Of a DNA stretch of 64,000 nucleotides, positions 51,439 to 61,694 are shown piece after piece. Below the pieces are notes generated by a model. It was given only the letters and a program-made list of their open reading frames with translations. It searched no databases and had not been told where the DNA came from. Both the position numbers and the translations under genes were made by a program. Source of the stretch: Micromonospora sp. RP3T (GTDB lineage Bacteria > Actinomycetota > Actinomycetes > Mycobacteriales > Micromonosporaceae); the NCBI RefSeq assembly GCF_003027925.1, contig NZ_PYPS01000040.1:1-64000 (forward strand), in the 5' to 3' direction. Position 1 is the stretch's first letter; every line of letters begins with the position of its first letter.

Positions 51439-53913
51439 ATGAAAAGAGGACACGTCAGCGGGCACCGCTGGCGAATGCCCAAGTGGCGCAGCGTTCTCGC
51501 CGCCACCGTCGGCATTATGGCGGCGGTTCCGGCACTGTCGCTGCTCCCGCAGTCGCAGGCCGCCGCGGTAAGCGGCGACTTGTCGACCAGTTTCTCGTCG
51601 AGGACACCTGCACTGGCGGCCAACTCCGACGGCCGGATGGAGTTCGTCCTCACCGACGCGTACGACACCGCGCTGAACCGTTGGCAGTCCACGCCGGGTG
51701 GTAGCCAGTGGACCGGCTGGAACGCCTTCAACGGCCAAATCCGATCCCTGGCCATGGAGGCACGTCAGGACAAGGCGCTGGACCTGTTCGGCCTGAACAA
51801 GGACGGTGACATCTGGCACCGTTGGCAGCAAGCCGGCGGATGGACCAACTGGGCCCAGATCGATGGGAACCTGAAGTCGATCGCGGTGGCTCGCGCCGGC
51901 AACGGGCTCCTCGAGATCTTCGGCACGAACGCGTCGGGCACGGTGTTCCACCGGTCGCAGGCGAGAGTGAACGCCAACGAGTGGGGCTCGTGGCAGGCAT
52001 TCGACGGCCAACTCGTCTCGGTCGCTGCCGAGACCAACGCCGACGGACGCCTCGAGGTGTTCGGCGTCAACAAGCAGGGCATGGTGTATCACCGTTGGAC
52101 GCAGACTGACGGCACCTGGTCGGGCTGGGCGTTGTTCGACGGGAACATGAGTTCCGTCGCGGTGGCCCGCAACGGCTTGGGACGGCTGGAGCTGTTCGGG
52201 ACCTCGGTGCAGGGCGACGTCTTCCACCGCTACCAGACTGACAGCGGCTGGTCACGCTGGGCCAACATCAGTCACTCCACCCGGTTGCGATCCGTCGCCG
52301 CGGACGCCAGTATCGACGGTCGGGTGATGGTCGTCGGTGTGAGCACGAACGGCGACGCGTTCTACCGGGAGCAGTTGACCGGTGGGGGGTGGTCGACGTG
52401 GACTCAGCTGCCCGCCGGCGTGACCCCGCCGTTCCGCGCCGGGGGCAGCGTCCGCACCCTCGACTCGCCGCAGACCGTGTCGAGGGTCGCCAGCACCGTC
52501 GGTTTCGACGGCCTGCCACTGACCGTGCAGAACGCCAGTAGCGTCCTCCGTGTCACGCATTGCAACGATGCCGCCTGCACCACGAGCACCAGCACCGCTG
52601 TCGCGGGTGCGACCGGTCTGCGGAGGGTGGCGGTGAAGACCGGCTGGGACGGGCTGCCCGTCATCGCCTTCACGCGGTACGTCAGCAGCACGCAGCCAAT
52701 GGTGCTCATGGTCGCCAAGTGCCACAACGTGGCGTGCACCGCCAGCACGATCTCGGTGATCGACGACAGTGAACCGTTGAGGGAGGAGATCGGCCTCACC
52801 ATCAGCGGCGACGGCTTGCCGGTGGTGGTGTACACCAACAACCCCGGCAGCGGTGACAAGCTGGTCAAGGTCGCGCGGTGCCACAACGCTTCCTGCATCG
52901 GCGCGACGGTCACCAACACCGGGTACGTCAGCGGTTACATTCCGGCGCTGAAGGTCGAGAACGGTGTCGACGGGCTTCCGAACTTCTTCTACAAGGGCAA
53001 GGCCGACCTCGTACTCGCGCGATGCAAGACTGTCGCGTGCAACACCTTCGAGCAGCGAACGGCGGAAGCGGGCTCGTCCGCCGGTGTGGACCATGTCGCC
53101 ATTGCCCGGGACAACGTGAGTGACCTCACCTATGTCGCGTGGGCGCGGCGCGACAGCGCCGGTCACGCGGAGCTCGTCATCCGCCGCTGCAACTTCGGAT
53201 CCTGCGTCAGCGGTGATCGCAAGGTACTCGTGCCCAGCGGCGAGGTCACCGGGGGGATCGGCCTTGCGTTCGGCGACGACCGGACGGTCATCGCCTCGTT
53301 CAAGGGTTCCGGGAACGACCTGAAGGTCGTCAAGTGCGCCGACCAGGGATGCACCTCGGCCAACACCTACTCGGTGGAGAACGGCGGAGACCAGGGCAGC
53401 CTCAACTCGATCCTCATCGGGGCGGACGGACTGCCGGTCATCACTTACCAGGACGGCGACACCGATCGCGTGAAGCTCGCCCACTGCGAGAACCTGAGCT
53501 GCTCCGGCTTCCCGAGCACCGGTGAGCCGACGCCGACGCCGACGCCGACCCCGACGCCGACCCCGACGCCCGGCGCCGGCTACAAGTCGGTGGTGCTCTA
53601 CAACTGCACGCCGTCGGAGTGGACCGTCAGCATCTGGACCCGCGACCTCACCACTGGTGGCGCGTGGCAGAGGAAGACGAGCCTCGACCCGCAGTGGACC
53701 TCCGGCGGGACGTGCGGCCCCAACGGCTACACGGGCACGCCCTACACGTTCACCATGGAGACCAACCACTACTACGACATCAAGGCGGTGACGATCGAGG
53801 CCGCCGGCTGCCCGGACATCCCGGACGGCAACTCCTCGTGCTCGGCACTGGACCTGAGGTACGTGCTCGGCAACACCAGCGGTCCCGTAGGCCACCAGAT
53901 CATCGGAGGCTGA
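51439..53913 (+). CDS. Secreted double-propeller protein with PLL-like and Cys-pair repeats
   Basis: An 824-residue secreted protein. Residues 1-42 form an extended signal (SVLAATVGIMAAVPALSLLP). Residues ~50-335 carry six PLL-like repeats (DIWHRWQQAGGWTNW, TVFHRSQAR, MVYHRWTQTDGTWSGW). Residues ~350-690 form a second repeat series with the rhythm DGLP(L/V)...C(x4)C, for example GWDGLPVIAF with CHNVAC, GVDGLPNFFY with CKTVAC, and GADGLPVITY with CENLSC; each Cys pair may be a small disulfide at the propeller edge. A (Pro-Thr) linker leads to a ~100-residue beta-rich C-terminal domain with four Cys (LYNCTPSEWTVSIWTRDLTT). GGGAAAG precedes ATG 51439. Glycan recognition is likely; the C-terminal domain is unknown. 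Confidence 0.85.
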   Translation: MKRGHVSGHRWRMPKWRSVLAATVGIMAAVPALSLLPQSQAAAVSGDLSTSFSSRTPALAANSDGRMEFVLTDAYDTALNRWQSTPGGSQWTGWNAFNGQIRSLAMEARQDKALDLFGLNKDGDIWHRWQQAGGWTNWAQIDGNLKSIAVARAGNGLLEIFGTNASGTVFHRSQARVNANEWGSWQAFDGQLVSVAAETNADGRLEVFGVNKQGMVYHRWTQTDGTWSGWALFDGNMSSVAVARNGLGRLELFGTSVQGDVFHRYQTDSGWSRWANISHSTRLRSVAADASIDGRVMVVGVSTNGDAFYREQLTGGGWSTWTQLPAGVTPPFRAGGSVRTLDSPQTVSRVASTVGFDGLPLTVQNASSVLRVTHCNDAACTTSTSTAVAGATGLRRVAVKTGWDGLPVIAFTRYVSSTQPMVLMVAKCHNVACTASTISVIDDSEPLREEIGLTISGDGLPVVVYTNNPGSGDKLVKVARCHNASCIGATVTNTGYVSGYIPALKVENGVDGLPNFFYKGKADLVLARCKTVACNTFEQRTAEAGSSAGVDHVAIARDNVSDLTYVAWARRDSAGHAELVIRRCNFGSCVSGDRKVLVPSGEVTGGIGLAFGDDRTVIASFKGSGNDLKVVKCADQGCTSANTYSVENGGDQGSLNSILIGADGLPVITYQDGDTDRVKLAHCENLSCSGFPSTGEPTPTPTPTPTPTPTPGAGYKSVVLYNCTPSEWTVSIWTRDLTTGGAWQRKTSLDPQWTSGGTCGPNGYTGTPYTFTMETNHYYDIKAVTIEAAGCPDIPDGNSSCSALDLRYVLGNTSGPVGHQIIGG
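53527..53571 (+). repeat. CCGACG/CCGACC tandem repeat encoding a Pro-Thr linker
   Basis: Fifteen codons alternate Pro (CCG, last CCC) and Thr (ACG or ACC), giving an extended linker between the second propeller and the C-terminal domain of the secreted protein at 51439. Such repeats slip during replication and could vary in length between strains. Confidence 0.9.
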
Positions 53914-56034: not shown

Positions 56035-56628
56035 GTGACTCTTGTTGAGCCCCGCACCGCTGTCACTGTCGGCCCTCTCCGTACGGTTCCCAACCACATC
56101 ACGGCCATCCGCACGGTCATTTCTGTCACTGTCGGTGTCGCCGCCGTCGTCGCCGGCTCCGCCGTCCTGCTGTCGGTGGCGTACGGCATCTACTGGTTCG
56201 GCGACGTGCTCGACGGCTGGGCCGCACGCAGGCTCGGACAGGAGACCCGGGCGGGGGCCGTCCTCGACATCGTGAGCGACCGCGCCTGCACCGCCGTGCT
56301 CGGCGCGGGCTTGGTCTCACTCCTGCCCGATGTCGCGGTCGTGGCCGTGGTGTTCCTGCTCTCGTTCCTGGTGCTGGACACCATGCTGTCGCTGGCGTTC
56401 CTGTGCTGGCCCGTGCTCAGCCCCAACTACTTCTACCTGATCGACCGGCGGGTATGGGCGGTGAACTGGTCGCCCGTGGCGAAGGTCGCCAACACCGCCG
56501 GGGTTGTCGGCGCCGTCGCGTTCGGGCAGTACCGACTCGCGCTGGCCGTCGCCGTCGCCCTCGTCGCGGTCAAGCTGTGGTCGGCCGGGGTGATGGTCCG
56601 GCTGCTCGACCGCGACGACCGGTCATGA
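56035..56628 (+). CDS. CDP-alcohol phosphatidyltransferase
   Basis: A 197-residue integral membrane enzyme. The complete CDP-alcohol signature is visible as D57, then D60-G61-x2-A64-R65-x8-G74-x3-D78-x3-D82 (FGDVLDGWAARRLGQETRAG ... LDIVSD). Such enzymes transfer a phosphatidyl group from CDP-diacylglycerol to an alcohol (glycerol phosphate, inositol phosphate or similar) using divalent metal. The fold of about six helices fits the hydrophobic segments (VISVTVGVAAVVAGSAVLLS, VAVVAVVFLLSFLVLDTMLS). GTG 56035 is the best start, with a weak ribosome site. It overlaps the next gene by ATGA; the alcohol acceptor is unknown. Confidence 0.88.
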   Translation: MTLVEPRTAVTVGPLRTVPNHITAIRTVISVTVGVAAVVAGSAVLLSVAYGIYWFGDVLDGWAARRLGQETRAGAVLDIVSDRACTAVLGAGLVSLLPDVAVVAVVFLLSFLVLDTMLSLAFLCWPVLSPNYFYLIDRRVWAVNWSPVAKVANTAGVVGAVAFGQYRLALAVAVALVAVKLWSAGVMVRLLDRDDRS

Positions 56629-57095
56629 GCGTCCTCGTCGAGGCGGTGCTGGCGCTCGGGTACGGTCTCGCCTCGGCCCTCGTCCCGATCGTCAACGCTG
56701 AGGCCTACGCCGTCGTCGCCGGAAGCCGTGGCAGCCACGCCCTGGTCGCCGTCCTCGCACTGGCGCTCGGGCAGACCGCCGGCAAGCTGCTCCTGTTCGA
56801 AGCCGCGCGTCGCGGAACGGGACGGCTCGCCCAGAAATTCGCACACCGGAGCCGATCAGGTCGCGCGGCGGCCGGGAGCGCCCGTTGGGCCGGGCGGATC
56901 CAGCGCTGGCTCTCCCGCCGGCGCACCGCCCTACCGACGGTGCTCGCCTCCGCCGCGGTCGGGGTCCCACCGCTGGCCGTCGTCAGTCTTGCCGCCGGCA
57001 CCGCGGGCCTCCGGCACCGCGAGTTCGCCGCCGCATGCCTGGCCGGGCGAGTGATCCGCTTCGCCCTCCTCGTCCTACCAGCGGCGTTGACCTAA
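56625..57095 (+). CDS. Small VTT/DedA-like membrane protein
   Basis: A 156-residue membrane protein with about four hydrophobic segments: ALGYGLASALVPIVNAEAYA, LVAVLALALGQTAGKLLLFE, TVLASAAVGVPPLAVVSLAA and a C-terminal FALLVLPAALT. Two amphipathic, Arg-rich stretches lie between. The GQTAGKLLLFEAARRG and VGVPPLAVVSLAAG motifs recall VTT/SNARE-associated (DedA-like) proteins, which handle lipid scrambling or membrane homeostasis. ATGA overlap with the phosphatidyltransferase gene implies a joint role in phospholipid metabolism. It converges on an MFS relic, sharing the last 4 bases. Confidence 0.75.
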   Translation: MSVLVEAVLALGYGLASALVPIVNAEAYAVVAGSRGSHALVAVLALALGQTAGKLLLFEAARRGTGRLAQKFAHRSRSGRAAAGSARWAGRIQRWLSRRRTALPTVLASAAVGVPPLAVVSLAAGTAGLRHREFAAACLAGRVIRFALLVLPAALT

Positions 57096-57405
57096 CCTCG
57101 GTCGTCGTCGAGCACCGCGACGGGCTGTCGCCGAGGTGCCGGGCTGCGGAGACCTGTTGAGCGTCCGGGAGAGGTGTGGATCGCGACAGCGCAGGCGAGC
57201 CCTGCGAGTACGGCCGCCAGCACGAACCCACGGGCGAAGCCCGACATCACAGCATCATCGACCACTGCCGTAGACGGAAGACCCAGAGCTGTGGCATCAG
57301 CGACCTGGTCCTCGGTGACCCTGGCCGCCACCGACGCCAGCACCGCGACTCCGACCGTGCCGCCCACTGCCTGGAACGTGCGGATCTGCCGGTCAGCGTG
57401 CTTGT
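57092..57405 (-). pseudogene. DHA2-type MFS efflux transporter, C-terminal relic
   Basis: The minus strand reads QIRTFQAVGGTVGVAVLASV and AARVTEDQVADATALGLPST, then a final helix FARGFVLAAVLAGLACAVAI and a basic tail. This is the last two helices of an EmrB/QacA-like 14-helix transporter (usual text FRQVGGTVGVAVLASV). The preceding 12 helices are absent; upstream of about 57405 the sequence enters the cytidine deaminase gene. A remnant without function. Confidence 0.7.
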
Positions 57406-58155: not shown

Positions 58156-61155
58156 TCAGGTGGTGGTGTCGGATCCGACTTGAGGTAGCTCGTGCGGTCG
58201 GTGGGGGGCGCGGTCCGGCGGAAGCAGGTGACATATCAGCTCGTAGGCGCGGGGCACGTCTCGCAGGCCCGTCAGGTGGGCGATCACTGTTCCCTCGGCG
58301 GTTGCCTCCACGGTGTGCCAGCCGACCCGCTCACGCTTCGTGCGCCGGCTGGTGGTGCCGCCTTGAGCGACGTCGACGGTGGTGACGTCCAGTTGGCCGT
58401 ATCCGAGCACTCTGCCGGGCAGGGACTGCTCGTATCGCAGGTCGGTGATGTGCCGCAACGGCACCTCGACACGTCGTGACATCGTCACCACTCGTATGCG
58501 GCGGTCCGTGACGGTCACCTGCTCGCTGGAGGCGATGGAGAACGGCACGGCGGCGATAATGATCAGTCCGATCGCAAGGCACAGCAGGCTCGGGAACAGG
58601 AGGAGACACGAGGCGATACCCGCGGCGAGGACCGTCACGGCGGGCAACACCGCTACGGGATGCATCGTCAGTTGCACACGCACGCGCTCGCCGGGCAGTA
58701 ACGTGCCCTGCTCGGCCAGCTGCCGCCACGGACCCAACCGCCATGTGTGGGCTGCCCTCCAATCGGTGCTCCCATCGTCGTCCGGATCGGTCACATGCTC
58801 GGCGGCGGGCGCACGGGCAGCGAGTTTCGTGGCCAGGGTGGGATCGCGCCAGCGTTGACGGGACCACGGCAGCCGCTGCAGGACCATCGCGTCACGTCCC
58901 GGCGCATTGCGGTGCCGCTCGATCCAGGTGACGAGCTGTTCCAAGCGCTGTTGCACACGTCCGTTGACGTCGGCGTCGGCGAGGTGGTTCTGCAGTCGAA
59001 GATGGCGGAACTGGTAGGCAGCGCCGATCTGGCGTAACACGCCGCGTCGGTGGGCGTCGATCAGAAACGGCATGATCCGCCATGGCAGGCGGCGCCGAAG
59101 CGCGTAGGACAATCGCGTGGCCGCGAAGCGACTGGACGCCGGACCGAAGTCACCGGTCAGCGCGGTCACGGCGGCGCGAGCCACCGCGTAGGCGAGGTAG
59201 CCGACGAGCGTGGCGGGGCCGGCGAACAGCCAGATGAGCAGTGCGAAGGTGCCGCGTCGGCCGAGCATGGAGATCAGCCCGGCACGTCTGTCCAGACGCA
59301 CCAGCTGCGCCGGCCCGACGGCGCGGGAAACATCGACCGGCTGCACCAGCCAGCCCGGTGCGTCGGCCATGACCACGCCAAGCACCGCTGCTGCCAGCAG
59401 GAAGCCGTTGATCTTCGGCAACGCCAGATGCGGGTACCAGGTTCGCACGACGCCCAAGGTGGTCAGCCCGGTCAGCGAGACGCCGACCCAGAGCCGCACG
59501 AGCGTCCACCGCCAGGTGCCGGGGCGCCGCCCAAGGGCCGATGGCAGCGGCGGCACTTCGACGGAGCGCCCCAGGGCGACGAGACCGGTGCCCACGATCG
59601 CCCAGGCCACCACCCACGAGGCGAAGGCCCGCGGGTCGGTCATCACGTCGACGGCGATCTCCGGTGGCAGGTCGAGGCTTTGTAGGGCGTCTGTCGCTTC
59701 CATGACCGACGGCGGGAGGTGGACACCGATCGGGCCTGACGAGGCCAGTCGACCCCACTCGGCGAAGAGGTTTCGTCCCGGGTCGGGCGCGTCAAGTGCG
59801 ATGGCGAGGGCGACGGCACCCCAGAGCAGCGCCGCGCCGACGGCGCAGCGCACCGCCACGACAAGCGACGCCCAGAACCGGCTGGGGTCGCTCATCCGCC
59901 ACCAGGCGAGGTCTCGGCTGTCCGCGCGGGCCAGGTCGGCGGCCAGAGCGGCCAGCCACCGCCGTGCCTGCTTCGGGCGGCAGCGGAACGGCGTCGGAGC
60001 GGGCTGGTCACCGTAGACCGCGGGTATCAGGGCTTCCAGCAGGTGCTGTTCCATGGTGTGCGCATCGGAGAAGGAAAGAAGCTCCGCCGGATCGTTGGAT
60101 TGGTGCTCGTACACGGTGCGGGCCAACCACAGCATCAGCGGGTTCGTCAGCACCTGCGCCGCCGCGCCGGTCGGCGCGGCGGTGACGTTGTCGAAGACGG
60201 CCTGCCAGCGGCCCGTTCGCGCGCCCGCGGTGGCGGCGAGGAGGTAGTCGCGCACCTCGTCGGTGGACAGCGGACGCAGGTGCACCGCTGTGGCGAGTGC
60301 TATCGGGCGTCCCACCTGATGCTCGGCGTCTCGGTATTCGTCCGGGCGGCTGGTCATCACCAGCGGCCGGTCCGAGCCGTAGGCGTTGATCTGCTCGATC
60401 ACCCACGCGCGCTCTGGCGCGGGCAGCTCATCCAATCCGTCCAGGACGGGTAGGATTCTCGCGGCGTCGACCAGCGCTTGAGCAAGGGTGACCGGTATGT
60501 GGTCGCCGGCGCGCACCGGCGCGGCGAGCGCGGGGCTGAGGTTCACCAGTTCGTCTGCCAGCCACCGGCTCAGGGTGGCTCCGGTGTGCCAGTTGCCCAG
60601 CGGCACGAGAACGGGCAGGGGATCGCCGGCCGATCGTGCGGCCAGGAGGTCGCGGACCAGGCGGGCTACCAGCACGCTCTTTCCCGACCCGGCCGTGCCG
60701 AGGATGACCAGCCGTGGTGTGGCCAAGGCCGTGAAGAACGCCCCTACGTCGGTGAACACGCCGGCGCCGGCGCCTGGCGCGTCGCTCGGTTCACCCGTGT
60801 CGCTGCCGGGGCTGTTGACGGTCGCCCATCGCACGGGCAGCGGCCATGGGTCGTTGATCCGCCGTAGCCGCTCCTCGTTGGCCCAGATGCGGGTGAGGGC
60901 TACGGCAAGGTCCTCGGCAGCCTGCTCGAGATCCGCGTTGGACAGGGGCTTCGCGTCGCGGGTCCACCCCAGTAGCCGGCGCAGGACCGCCGTAAGGGTG
61001 CCGGCGGCCAGGAGCACGAATCCGGCGATGCTGGCGGCCTTGTCACCCCAGTCGAGGTCGTGTTCCCGCACTGACCAGCCGGCTCGTGCGAGCAGGGCCA
61101 CCGCTACGCCGACCACGACGACCGCGAACAGTCGGCGTACCCGCACGCTGCGCAC
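58156..61155 (-). CDS. Membrane NACHT NTPase with C-terminal bacterial PH domain
   Basis: A 999-residue protein. Two N-terminal membrane helices (~9-25, 42-58) are followed by a NACHT NTPase: P-loop ILGTAGSGKS (151-160), Walker B ILPVLDGLDEL (234-244), sensor-like PLVMTSRPDEY and the NACHT-associated helical region to ~410. Then come several membrane helices (~415-660, e.g. FWASLVVAVRCAVGAALLWG, INGFLLAAAVLGVVMADAPG, ALLIWLFAGPATLVGYLAYA), a soluble segment, and a final helix hairpin (VAVLPAVTVLAAGIASCLLL) leading into a bPH2/YdbS-like domain (QVTVTDRRIRVVTMSRRVEV, LRHITDLRYEQSLPGRVLGY). It is probably an immunity/stress NTPase anchored in the membrane. GTG 61155 or GTG 61146 may be the start. 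Confidence 0.85.
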   Translation of the reverse strand: MRSVRVRRLFAVVVVGVAVALLARAGWSVREHDLDWGDKAASIAGFVLLAAGTLTAVLRRLLGWTRDAKPLSNADLEQAAEDLAVALTRIWANEERLRRINDPWPLPVRWATVNSPGSDTGEPSDAPGAGAGVFTDVGAFFTALATPRLVILGTAGSGKSVLVARLVRDLLAARSAGDPLPVLVPLGNWHTGATLSRWLADELVNLSPALAAPVRAGDHIPVTLAQALVDAARILPVLDGLDELPAPERAWVIEQINAYGSDRPLVMTSRPDEYRDAEHQVGRPIALATAVHLRPLSTDEVRDYLLAATAGARTGRWQAVFDNVTAAPTGAAAQVLTNPLMLWLARTVYEHQSNDPAELLSFSDAHTMEQHLLEALIPAVYGDQPAPTPFRCRPKQARRWLAALAADLARADSRDLAWWRMSDPSRFWASLVVAVRCAVGAALLWGAVALAIALDAPDPGRNLFAEWGRLASSGPIGVHLPPSVMEATDALQSLDLPPEIAVDVMTDPRAFASWVVAWAIVGTGLVALGRSVEVPPLPSALGRRPGTWRWTLVRLWVGVSLTGLTTLGVVRTWYPHLALPKINGFLLAAAVLGVVMADAPGWLVQPVDVSRAVGPAQLVRLDRRAGLISMLGRRGTFALLIWLFAGPATLVGYLAYAVARAAVTALTGDFGPASSRFAATRLSYALRRRLPWRIMPFLIDAHRRGVLRQIGAAYQFRHLRLQNHLADADVNGRVQQRLEQLVTWIERHRNAPGRDAMVLQRLPWSRQRWRDPTLATKLAARAPAAEHVTDPDDDGSTDWRAAHTWRLGPWRQLAEQGTLLPGERVRVQLTMHPVAVLPAVTVLAAGIASCLLLFPSLLCLAIGLIIIAAVPFSIASSEQVTVTDRRIRVVTMSRRVEVPLRHITDLRYEQSLPGRVLGYGQLDVTTVDVAQGGTTSRRTKRERVGWHTVEATAEGTVIAHLTGLRDVPRAYELICHLLPPDRAPHRPHELPQVGSDTTT

Positions 61156-61388
61156 ACCTCATCATCGCTGACGGGTCGAGCATGCTCAACGCAGGTCCCT
61201 CGATGACGTATGTCGACACCCCTGTTGGGCGCCGGACGGTCTGACCGTTTCCGACCCGTGCTCGGGCAGCCGCCGTCGCCGATTCCGGCCGGCGAGCGAG
61301 TGGATGAGCTGGTGTGACTGCCGCGACCGATGGCAGGATGGGAGCGGCAGTCAGCGAATCTGGGTCGCCGTCGCACGGGTGGGGACAG

Positions 61389-61694
61389 ATGAACCAAAGA
61401 CTCATTGCCGCCATTTCGGTGGTGTTGGGAATCGTCGCCAGTGTCCTGACCAATCTGGTCACCGCAGGTCCCACGCCGCCGCTCGTCGTGGGGCTCGTCG
61501 CGGTCGCCTTGCTCTGGGTGGGGCTGACCGCGCTTCAGCGCCCCGGATCACCGCCGGTCGTGGCCCCGACCTCCGAGACGCACGGGGACCACAGCCCCAT
61601 CGTCAACGCGGACAACAACAGCGGACACATCACCTTCCACGCGCCGCCGAGATCTGAAAGGCCGTCCGGCGCCAACGGCGATCCGACTTCATGA
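61389..61694 (+). CDS. Small two-TM protein carrying a beta-strand tag
   Basis: A 101-residue protein with two membrane helices (~6-24 LIAAISVVLGIVASVLTNL, ~31-48 PLVVGLVAVALLWVGLTA) and a polar C-terminal tail containing THGDHSPIVNADNNSG (residues 64-79) followed by HITFHAPP. The same sequence recurs at the N-terminus of the next protein. GGGGAC precedes ATG 61389. Its stop overlaps the ATG of the STAND NTPase gene (ATGA). Small membrane proteins next to STAND NTPases often act as effectors that permeabilise the membrane or as anchors; here the shared tag suggests that the two proteins meet through it. This is inference. Confidence 0.75.
   Translation: MNQRLIAAISVVLGIVASVLTNLVTAGPTPPLVVGLVAVALLWVGLTALQRPGSPPVVAPTSETHGDHSPIVNADNNSGHITFHAPPRSERPSGANGDPTS
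61572..61634 (+). repeat. 63-bp repeat, copy 1 (coding)
   Basis: Encodes the 21-residue tag S-ETHGDHSPIVNADNNSG-HIT in the small membrane protein. Copy 2 lies at 61730-61792. The two copies agree at 57 of 63 positions and are in frame in two different genes. Confidence 0.9.

Follow-up and report, generated by a model that had tools for sequence, protein, structure and literature searches.

A Micromonospora protein combining a predicted NLR-type NACHT core, inserted transmembrane helices and a YdbS-like bPH2 module

Receptors of the nucleotide-binding leucine-rich-repeat (NLR) type are, to our knowledge, regarded as cytosolic. Among bacterial proteins, bNACHT25 and bNACHT12 are anti-phage proteins in which a NACHT signal transduction ATPase with numerous domains (STAND NTPase) is the central switch, accompanied by an N-terminal nuclease with NCH1 or by SNaCT domains without a clear effector (as given in an excerpt of PMC12169576). 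The KAP P-loop NTPases carry transmembrane (TM) helices inserted in an NTPase protein, according to a title cited in the reference lists of PMC8195603 and PMC10853773, and the BASS-Bell NLR signalosomes have a tag that is shared with an adjacent gene (excerpts of PMC7889193 and PMC8086366). The YdbS/YdbT-like proteins DdE and DdF act in bacteriocin transport (excerpt of PMC8657885). We examined a gene at 58156-61155 on the minus strand of a 64,000-nucleotide stretch of Micromonospora sp. RP3T (positions 1 to 64,000 of contig NZ_PYPS01000040.1; hereafter the window), whose predicted product of 999 amino acids (aa) joins a NACHT domain, a block of TM helices and a YdbS-like bPH2 domain. An NLR-type switch and architecture in this protein was well supported by sequence and by a predicted model. 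Whether the protein operates as an NLR-like STAND NTPase built into the membrane, an ATP-operated switch with a membrane-level output, was judged an even call.

Both Pfam matches were located within a single open reading frame (ORF) that opens with GTG; the exact start codon is uncertain. NACHT was detected at residues 149-306 (E = 6.5e-13; 49.3 bits, cut-off 26.7) and bPH_2 at residues 880-930 (E = 7.5e-5), the latter with a score of 23.3 bits that lies narrowly above the Pfam cut-off of 22. The bPH_2 match stood at 1.4e-5 when the C-terminal part was searched alone, and alignment to YdbS-like proteins supports the assignment. Hydropathy analysis detected two N-terminal TM regions, about five in mid-protein and a strongly hydrophobic stretch ahead of bPH2. 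The combination of a NACHT module, a multi-TM block, a TM hairpin and a bPH2/YdbS-like domain, first read in a preliminary description of this DNA, was confirmed by these results in one ORF. The protein was the single match in its own genome, its Pfam scan gave neither a leucine-rich-repeat (LRR) match nor a recognised DNA-binding domain, and a consensus scan found no promoter-like site. The features are listed below; HD1 is helical domain 1, WHD the winged-helix domain and SARP the Streptomyces antibiotic regulatory protein family.

58156..61155, minus strand: whole gene for the NACHT-TM-WHD-bPH2 protein, 999 aa (ORF and Pfam)
60973..61152, minus strand: N-terminal TM hairpin, residues 2-61 (hydropathy, AlphaFold2); the slot holds TIR, helix-turn-helix (HTH), SARP or an amyloid-like tag in some relatives
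60238..60711, minus strand: NACHT nucleotide-binding domain, residues 149-306 (Pfam; predicted NLRP3/NOD2 fold)
60676..60699, minus strand: Walker A motif, residues 153-160, with G153, G156, G158 and K159 in 90/90 family members
59881..60237, minus strand: helical domain HD1, about residues 307-425, with a PL motif at 339-340 (PL in 89/90 members; predicted fold)
59155..59880, minus strand: TM block, residues 426-667, probably six helices, between HD1 and WHD (model, hydropathy)
58936..59154, minus strand: WHD, about residues 668-740 (predicted fold and conserved residues; no Pfam match)
59002..59010, minus strand: invariant FRH motif, residues 716-718 (88/88 members, this protein included)
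58711..58935, minus strand: linker, residues 741-815 (62% identity to the orthologue across 741-805)
58222..58710, minus strand: YdbS-like module, about residues 816-978 (alignment with the orthologue and 26 YdbS-like proteins)
58525..58659, minus strand: TM hairpin of the YdbS-like module, residues 833-877 (predicted helices and hydropathy)
58225..58521, minus strand: bPH2 domain, residues 879-977 (Pfam PF03703; predicted strands and C-terminal helix)
57093..57101: edge of the gene-containing stretch that has no counterpart in the compared relatives (6/6 relatives)

A full-length AlphaFold2 model, built with 88 aligned sequences, had a mean confidence of 73.8 and a predicted template modelling score (pTM) of 0.70. 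Block means were 87-97 for NACHT-HD1 (residues 131-420), 86-96 for the WHD (671-740), 51-87 for the TM block and mostly below 50 beyond residue 760. The best solved matches in a Foldseek search with this model were NOD2 and NLRP3. Structural alignment to NLRP3 9gu4 gave a Z score of 17.0 and a root mean square deviation of 3.7 over 321 aligned residues, with model residues 77-733 falling on chain residues 134-537, and the predicted model has the nucleotide-binding domain-HD1-WHD fold. Since the TM block falls inside the aligned ranges, an insertion of residues 426-667 between HD1 and WHD is the best reading. The NTPase residues G153, G156, G158, K159, D239, D242 and R270 were invariant in a survey of 90 family members that included the window protein, and Walker A, a D-x-x-D Walker B and the sensor arginine were present in all 90. 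Similarly, P691, R708, F716, R717 and H718 of the WHD were invariant in the 88 members, window protein included, that remained once L019 and L074, which gave no WHD match, were set aside. The FRH motif occupies what we take to be the position of the NLR WHD FxH signature, whose histidine contacts ADP; H718 would presumably make this contact in all 88. Three isolated WHD segments gave no Pfam match, even at E values up to 10. The spacing between the conserved parts of HD1 and WHD ranged from 32 to 609 residues across the family, with a median of 232. The lower extreme was L105, which is nearly without a TM block and has only 32 residues between the two domains, so that the block looks like an insertion. 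A PDB sequence search with the core profile returned six membrane proteins at E values of 0.013-0.08, which were taken as chance matches.

Hydropathy averaged over 69 aligned members exhibited peaks near residues 431, 510, 556, 581 and 626 and a broad shoulder at 651, and the AlphaFold2 helix is broken at residue 646. Six mid-protein TM helices are favoured, but not settled, by the family average together with the AlphaFold2 helices. A count of six would place NACHT and WHD on the same side of the membrane, and the loop charges, which are mostly positive-inside, largely agree with this topology. Across the family, the number of hydropathy peaks in the block varied from 1 to 16. With the N-terminal and bPH2 hairpins included, about ten TM helices in total are expected, in a predicted order of two TM helices, cytosolic NACHT and HD1, about six TM helices, a cytosolic WHD, two TM helices and a cytosolic PH domain. 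Bacterial PH domains with TM helices have been inferred to be intracellular (Xu et al. 2010, excerpt of PMC2817789).

The C-terminal module was aligned with that of an orthologue from another genome of the genus (G018) and with 26 YdbS-like proteins, of which 19 reach from the start motif across the TM hairpin to GYG/NYG and 7 begin in the second TM helix; L056 was excluded. Relative to the YdbS-like proteins, the window module has about 25 extra alignment columns inside the PH domain. Folded alone, it was predicted to form two hairpin helices, eight further strands and a C-terminal helix (mean pLDDT of 70.7), and the bPH2 domain is preceded by two TM helices, as expected of YdbS. A PDB sequence search with a bPH2 profile gave no match up to E = 1. 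No ydbT-like (bPH2-repeat) neighbour was detected, in that seven other neighbourhood proteins gave no bPH_2 match, with the small ORFs at 56625-57095 and 57092-57367 left unscanned. Lipid binding or assembly had been offered as roles of the PH domain. Assembly fits the literature better and lipid binding less well, as Xu et al. 2010 argue for protein contacts over lipid binding in the solved PHb domains, one of which forms an oligomeric ring (excerpt of PMC2817789).

The G018 orthologue matches residues 1-990 at 68% identity in a single open frame with the same layout. Core homologues (E ≤ 1e-3) were present in 86 of 151 genus genomes, and among the other matches listed the G018 protein alone spans residues 1-990. 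A profile of the C-terminal part gave strong matches in 2 of 160 genus genomes, the window's own and G018 (E values of 3e-163 and 3e-173); the next-best match listed was at 3.9e-8, and the listed weak matches lay in frames of 196-554 aa. With the same profile, 126 of 397 genomes sampled from the order had matches at 1e-6; besides the window's own protein these were in frames of 171-443 aa, and G018 was not listed there. These results indicated that the NACHT-TM-bPH2 architecture is rare (2/160 genus genomes; only the window's own in the order sample) and that YdbS-like genes are widespread in both samples. A scan of genome contigs with the NACHT-bPH2 protein confirmed no relatives. Candidates scored per genome numbered 5 in the genus whole-protein scan, 15 with the genus C-terminal profile, 6 in the order and 2 in the family and class core scans, so rarer fusions may be missed by the wide scans.

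Nonsynonymous-to-synonymous ratios (dN/dS, or omega) between the window gene and the G018 gene were 0.16 in the WHD, 0.21 in NACHT-HD1, 0.33 in the bPH2 core and 0.48 in the YdbS-like part as a whole, and were highest, at 0.58, in the TM block. Among the large parts, identity was lowest in the YdbS-like one (54%), whose dN (0.37) is no lower than in the TM block (0.33). By these sequence measures, the NACHT-bPH2 fusion is real, with dN/dS below 1 in every domain, and it is not a chance event, since the orthologue is one open frame at 68% identity and omega lies at 0.16-0.58 per domain. The preliminary description had named two findings that would speak against a meaningful fusion, namely separate NACHT and bPH2 genes in close relatives and constant association with housekeeping lipid genes. 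The first was literally observed, in that bPH2 is missing from the nearest cores and YdbS-like genes occur widely; the conclusion of a chance fusion was not borne out, as the conserved orthologue points to retained gain of a module. The second was not seen, and the orthologue shares no syntenic neighbour. The chance joining of a NACHT gene to a housekeeping YdbS-like gene, giving a product without a function of its own, would explain why both parts are otherwise separate in the genomes searched, but retention of the fusion in two genomes this diverged, with the ratios given above, makes it highly improbable.

The core has a wide distribution: in the host's taxonomic family, 151 of 354 genomes and 23 of 44 genera had a match at E ≤ 1e-30, and in a sample of the class, 47 of 394 genomes and 19 of 137 genera had one at 1e-20. 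Plasmid records with the core numbered 50, of which 33 were of Streptomyces and some were cyanobacterial; none covers 80% of the query, and 16 of the 25 plasmid matches listed are annotated as NACHT domain-containing protein. Phage records searched with the core gave no match. The 90-member survey is non-random, because long open frames were fetched by preference (a duplicate locus, L064, was dropped), and the share of members with C-terminal modules is thereby inflated; ORF starts in GC-rich DNA are uncertain, and some N-terminal extensions are over-called.

Both ends of the protein vary across the family. The tail after the WHD was shorter than 80 aa in 42/88 members, in which the core is kept. 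The other 46 tails comprised 12 with a common tail of about 310 aa, 11 TPR-like, 4 WD40, 2 multi-TM, 2 bPH2 (the window protein and G018), 4 of an L036 group and 2 of an L107 group (both propeller-like on weak evidence), 2 of an L080 group without a Pfam match, and seven singles, one of them with SBP_bac_11 plus VWA. No Pfam match was obtained for the tails of L063, L075, L080, L086, L098 and L007, even at E values up to 10. A TM peak was detected shortly after the WHD in the WD40, L036, L080, L107 and SBP/VWA tails but not in the twelve 310-aa tails or in 10 of the 11 TPR-like tails; tails behind such a peak would face outward, provided that the WHD is cytosolic. The SBP_bac_11 and VWA domains of L023 (4214-5821, plus strand) lie behind a single TM peak after the WHD, giving an NLR-like protein with a tail predicted to be outside the cell. 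In L086 (3781-4371, plus strand), the tail has a TM hairpin by eye (one hydropathy peak) and a PH-like strand pattern without a Pfam match. A PH-like module may thus have been acquired independently in this tail; hhalign detected no similarity between it and the bPH2 profile.

A tree of 88 cores (343 columns) paired the two bPH2 proteins with a support of 1.0 inside a five-member clade with a support of 0.96. This clade has four tail states, the non-bPH2 tails being of 17 aa (none), 108 aa and 287 aa without a Pfam match, and from the position of the pair bPH2 was probably gained in that lineage. The 12 tails of about 310 aa formed one clade, indicating that this tail is inherited rather than swapped, and the TPR-like and propeller-like tails were scattered.

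Pore formation or the sensing of envelope damage, which the preliminary description suggested for the membrane block, are both possible roles of it. From its position and from the family, bPH2 is somewhat favoured as the sensor. In a competing explanation, bPH2 is an assembly or anchoring part and sensing falls to the inserted TM block. The persistence of the core in the 42 members with tails below 80 aa would fit this division of labour, as would the omega of the block, the highest of the large domains, its range of 1 to 16 hydropathy peaks and the oligomeric ring built by the PHb domain of Xu et al. (PMC2817789). However, the same position is taken elsewhere by TPR, WD40 or SBP/VWA, which are suited to sensing, and the module keeps a TM hairpin of its own and has an omega of 0.48, or 0.33 in the PH core. 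We regard sensing by the TM block as a tentative alternative, with less than an even chance.

A TM-like peak ahead of NACHT was present in 68/90 members. Among the 22 members that lack such a peak, a scan of 18 (leaving out L026, L027, L039 and L106, with near-threshold hydropathy) showed that the N-terminal slot contained HTH_31 in 5, SARP (BTAD plus Trans_reg_C) in 2 and TIR_2 in 1 (E = 4.5e-32). The TIR_2 domain, whose bearer was assigned by eye, lies at about residues 15-150 of L098 (genome G210). In L081 and L090, the N-termini are SARP-type regulators (Trans_reg_C and BTAD) fused to a membrane-embedded NACHT core, and it is possible that these two are membrane-tethered transcription factors. 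In L016/L020/L021 and in L086, the N-terminus carries a tag in common with the C-terminus of the gene directly upstream; for L016/L020/L021, the upstream protein seems by eye to have a nucleotide-cyclase domain, with the tag at its C-terminus.

Tag sharing was assessed by matching N-termini to their own loci. A match below 1e-4 was found at the own locus in 8/89 and in the control in 18/89, the control being 160 kb against loci of about 4-20 kb, and low-complexity N-termini match spuriously in both. Only L016/L020/L021 (near-identical, one case) and L086 were therefore counted as sharers of a tag, their own tag match being 50- to 800-fold better than their own control. The L085 match does not beat its control (1.4e-4 versus 1.0e-4) and is only suggestive. 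The pairwise search did not include the window protein, in which inspection detected no N-terminal amyloid tag; a hydrophobic helix begins within the first ten residues and leaves no room for one. Overall, we read the N-terminal slot from these sequences as an effector or output slot, occupied in the window protein by the TM hairpin. An effector role for the hairpin itself, resting on position and family, has roughly even odds.

Synteny was compared in six of the nine other matching genomes, three at about 50% identity being left out. In all six, a match of about 85-87% to the window ran from the beginning of the fetched stretch (54.15-54.4 kb) and stopped at 57093-57101, and nothing from there to the contig end at 66752 aligned in the stretches fetched from these relatives, so that the gene lies in a stretch that they lack. 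The surroundings of the orthologue (about 6-11 kb on each side) had no syntenic gene in common with the window, with only generic regulator similarity. At 51439-53913, the window encodes a protein of 824 aa that has Tectonin domains and a linker of proline-threonine repeats.

Next to the NACHT-bPH2 gene lies a second STAND gene. The ORFs at 61314-61694 (a 126-aa TM protein) and 61691-66253 (a 1520-aa STAND protein; L002) have a near-identical common tag of 66 nucleotides (89% identical), SETHGDHSPI..NADNNSG, in a layout like that of amyloid-type NLR/effector pairs. A search with the tagged STAND protein, the small tagged membrane protein being left out, matched 7/160 genus genomes at 1e-20, and the window's own was the sole one with a full-length match. 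It had been proposed that this pair and the NACHT-bPH2 gene form one locus. The genes are divergent, 158 bp apart and in the same stretch absent from the six relatives, but no such pair lies beside the orthologue, G018 is not among the seven genomes with a tagged STAND match, and the pair has a tag of its own that the NACHT-bPH2 protein does not carry. The proposal was accordingly not upheld, and a common locus is now very unlikely.

In the mechanism that we consider for the protein as a membrane-built STAND NTPase, ADP would lock NACHT against the WHD through the FRH histidine in the resting state, by analogy with NLR structures. The bPH2 domain, in the variable C-terminal slot, would bind a protein or a membrane state that arises under attack or envelope damage, and release would permit ATP to bind and the protein to oligomerise within the membrane plane. 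Output would most likely come from the TM helices themselves, as the N-terminal hairpin sits in the slot that relatives fill with TIR, HTH, SARP or a tag; membrane permeabilisation or depolarisation could then lead to growth stop or cell death. The position of the gene in a stretch absent from six relatives, next to a second STAND gene, speaks for this mechanism. A role in defence against phages or competitors, considered from position and family, is plausible at slightly under even odds.

Several observations weigh against this mechanism. Because 42/88 members lack a C-terminal module, the TM block may itself sense. Foldseek of bPH2 was weak against solved PH domains (Pob3, Rtt106 and MTMR2; best PH-like E value of 0.012), the first row (E = 0.009) being a mitochondrial complex IV subunit, and the placement of bPH2 in the full-length model is of low confidence. 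The short loop at 571-582, which is outside in the model topology, carries positive charge, and simple hydropathy counts of the insert gave five helices in the window protein and an odd number in 42/88 members, where the model needs an even one. PADLOC gave no match at E ≤ 0.001 for the window protein and five matches at E 0.016-0.056; NCBIfam gave only a partial match to antiphage_EruA, with 21.1 bits against a cut-off of 1000. There was no PADLOC enrichment near family genes, where at E ≤ 1e-8 eight families accounted for at most 14 of 140 neighbours, compared to eight families in at most 13 of 98 arbitrary proteins, with one or two members of each family among the neighbours and one to three in the control. 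The neighbours were proteins below 600 aa drawn at random from 168 genes called with a home-made codon score at 58 loci, and the controls came from 20 arbitrarily placed stretches. On these counts, a defence-island gene was rejected. Mrr_cat nucleases (Pfam) were found in 3/140 neighbours, with no control for comparison, and the commonest Pfam families among the neighbours were mainly metabolic and regulatory. Finally, the HTH and SARP members point to transcriptional signalling.

In a different explanation, the protein is a membrane signalling receptor for gene expression or development (envelope stress, secondary metabolism) and not for killing or defence, NACHT switching altering the TM or PH parts and the signal passing to a partner. 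Xre-type HTH domains in 5/18 relatives (probably one lineage) and SARP in 2/18, the metabolic and regulatory neighbours with their lack of PADLOC enrichment, and the membership of B. subtilis ydbST in the sigma-W regulon (excerpt of PMC3498285) would all be accommodated. On the other hand, one relative has TIR in the same slot, tag-sharing gene pairs occur, the window protein has no DNA-binding domain recognised by Pfam, few genomes have the fusion, and six relatives lack the stretch that holds it. We regard a signalling receptor as the less likely function, though one with some standing.

Taken as a family, these proteins could tentatively be regarded as a transmembrane NLR class, in which the ATP switch of the NLR itself passes through the membrane, a ligand or membrane state directly opens NACHT-WHD and an interchangeable N-terminal effector is fired; we hold this to be short of an even chance. 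An outside ligand might be read by WD40 or SBP/VWA tails behind a single TM helix, and a membrane state by bPH2, in which case the window protein would be the version reading the membrane or a membrane-bound partner. This is a large, little-studied actinomycete family whose two ends vary like plug-in parts. If the interpretation is true, TM helices inside an NLR switch, together with the variable ends, would link membrane sensing directly to NLR activation. The family is a natural module set for testing how sensors are coupled to NACHT switching, and through its bPH2 member the YdbS module, which is poorly understood, would gain an output that can be read.

The architecture was set against excerpts of PMC12169576 (bNACHT25), PMC7159879 (Kaur 2020), PMC8195603 (Kaur 2021) and PMC13092281 (DefensePredictor). 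Neither a NACHT protein with TM helices between HD1 and WHD nor a NACHT-bPH2 fusion was among the literature matches listed; an earlier mention is possible. The bNACHT proteins likewise have NACHT as the central switch, and the excerpt of PMC12169576 mentions no TM insertion or bPH2 in them. In the KAP NTPases, the helices lie, according to the cited title, within the NTPase domain, whereas Walker A and Walker B of the window protein are uninterrupted, with no TM peak by hydropathy between Walker A (153) and Walker B (243), and the insertion follows HD1; assignment as a KAP NTPase was rejected on this difference in place. The shared tag of the BASS-Bell signalosomes has its likeness in some family members, whereas the window protein has a TM hairpin at its N-terminus and no visible tag. 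With YdbS (PF03703), the module has in common a TM hairpin and bPH2, the motif Lx(P/E)xE ahead of the hairpin and the motifs TxxR and GYG/NYG, but YdbS is a separate protein and the window module, with its extra columns, is fused behind a NACHT core. Compared to eukaryotic NLRs, the window protein has a TM-helix segment of about 240 residues separating HD1 from the WHD, an N-terminal TM hairpin and a C-terminal bPH2 in a protein without an LRR match, and it shares with the core of NOD2, NLRP3 and NLRC4 the same NACHT-HD1-WHD fold by prediction, FxH in the WHD and the order of effector, NTPase and sensor.

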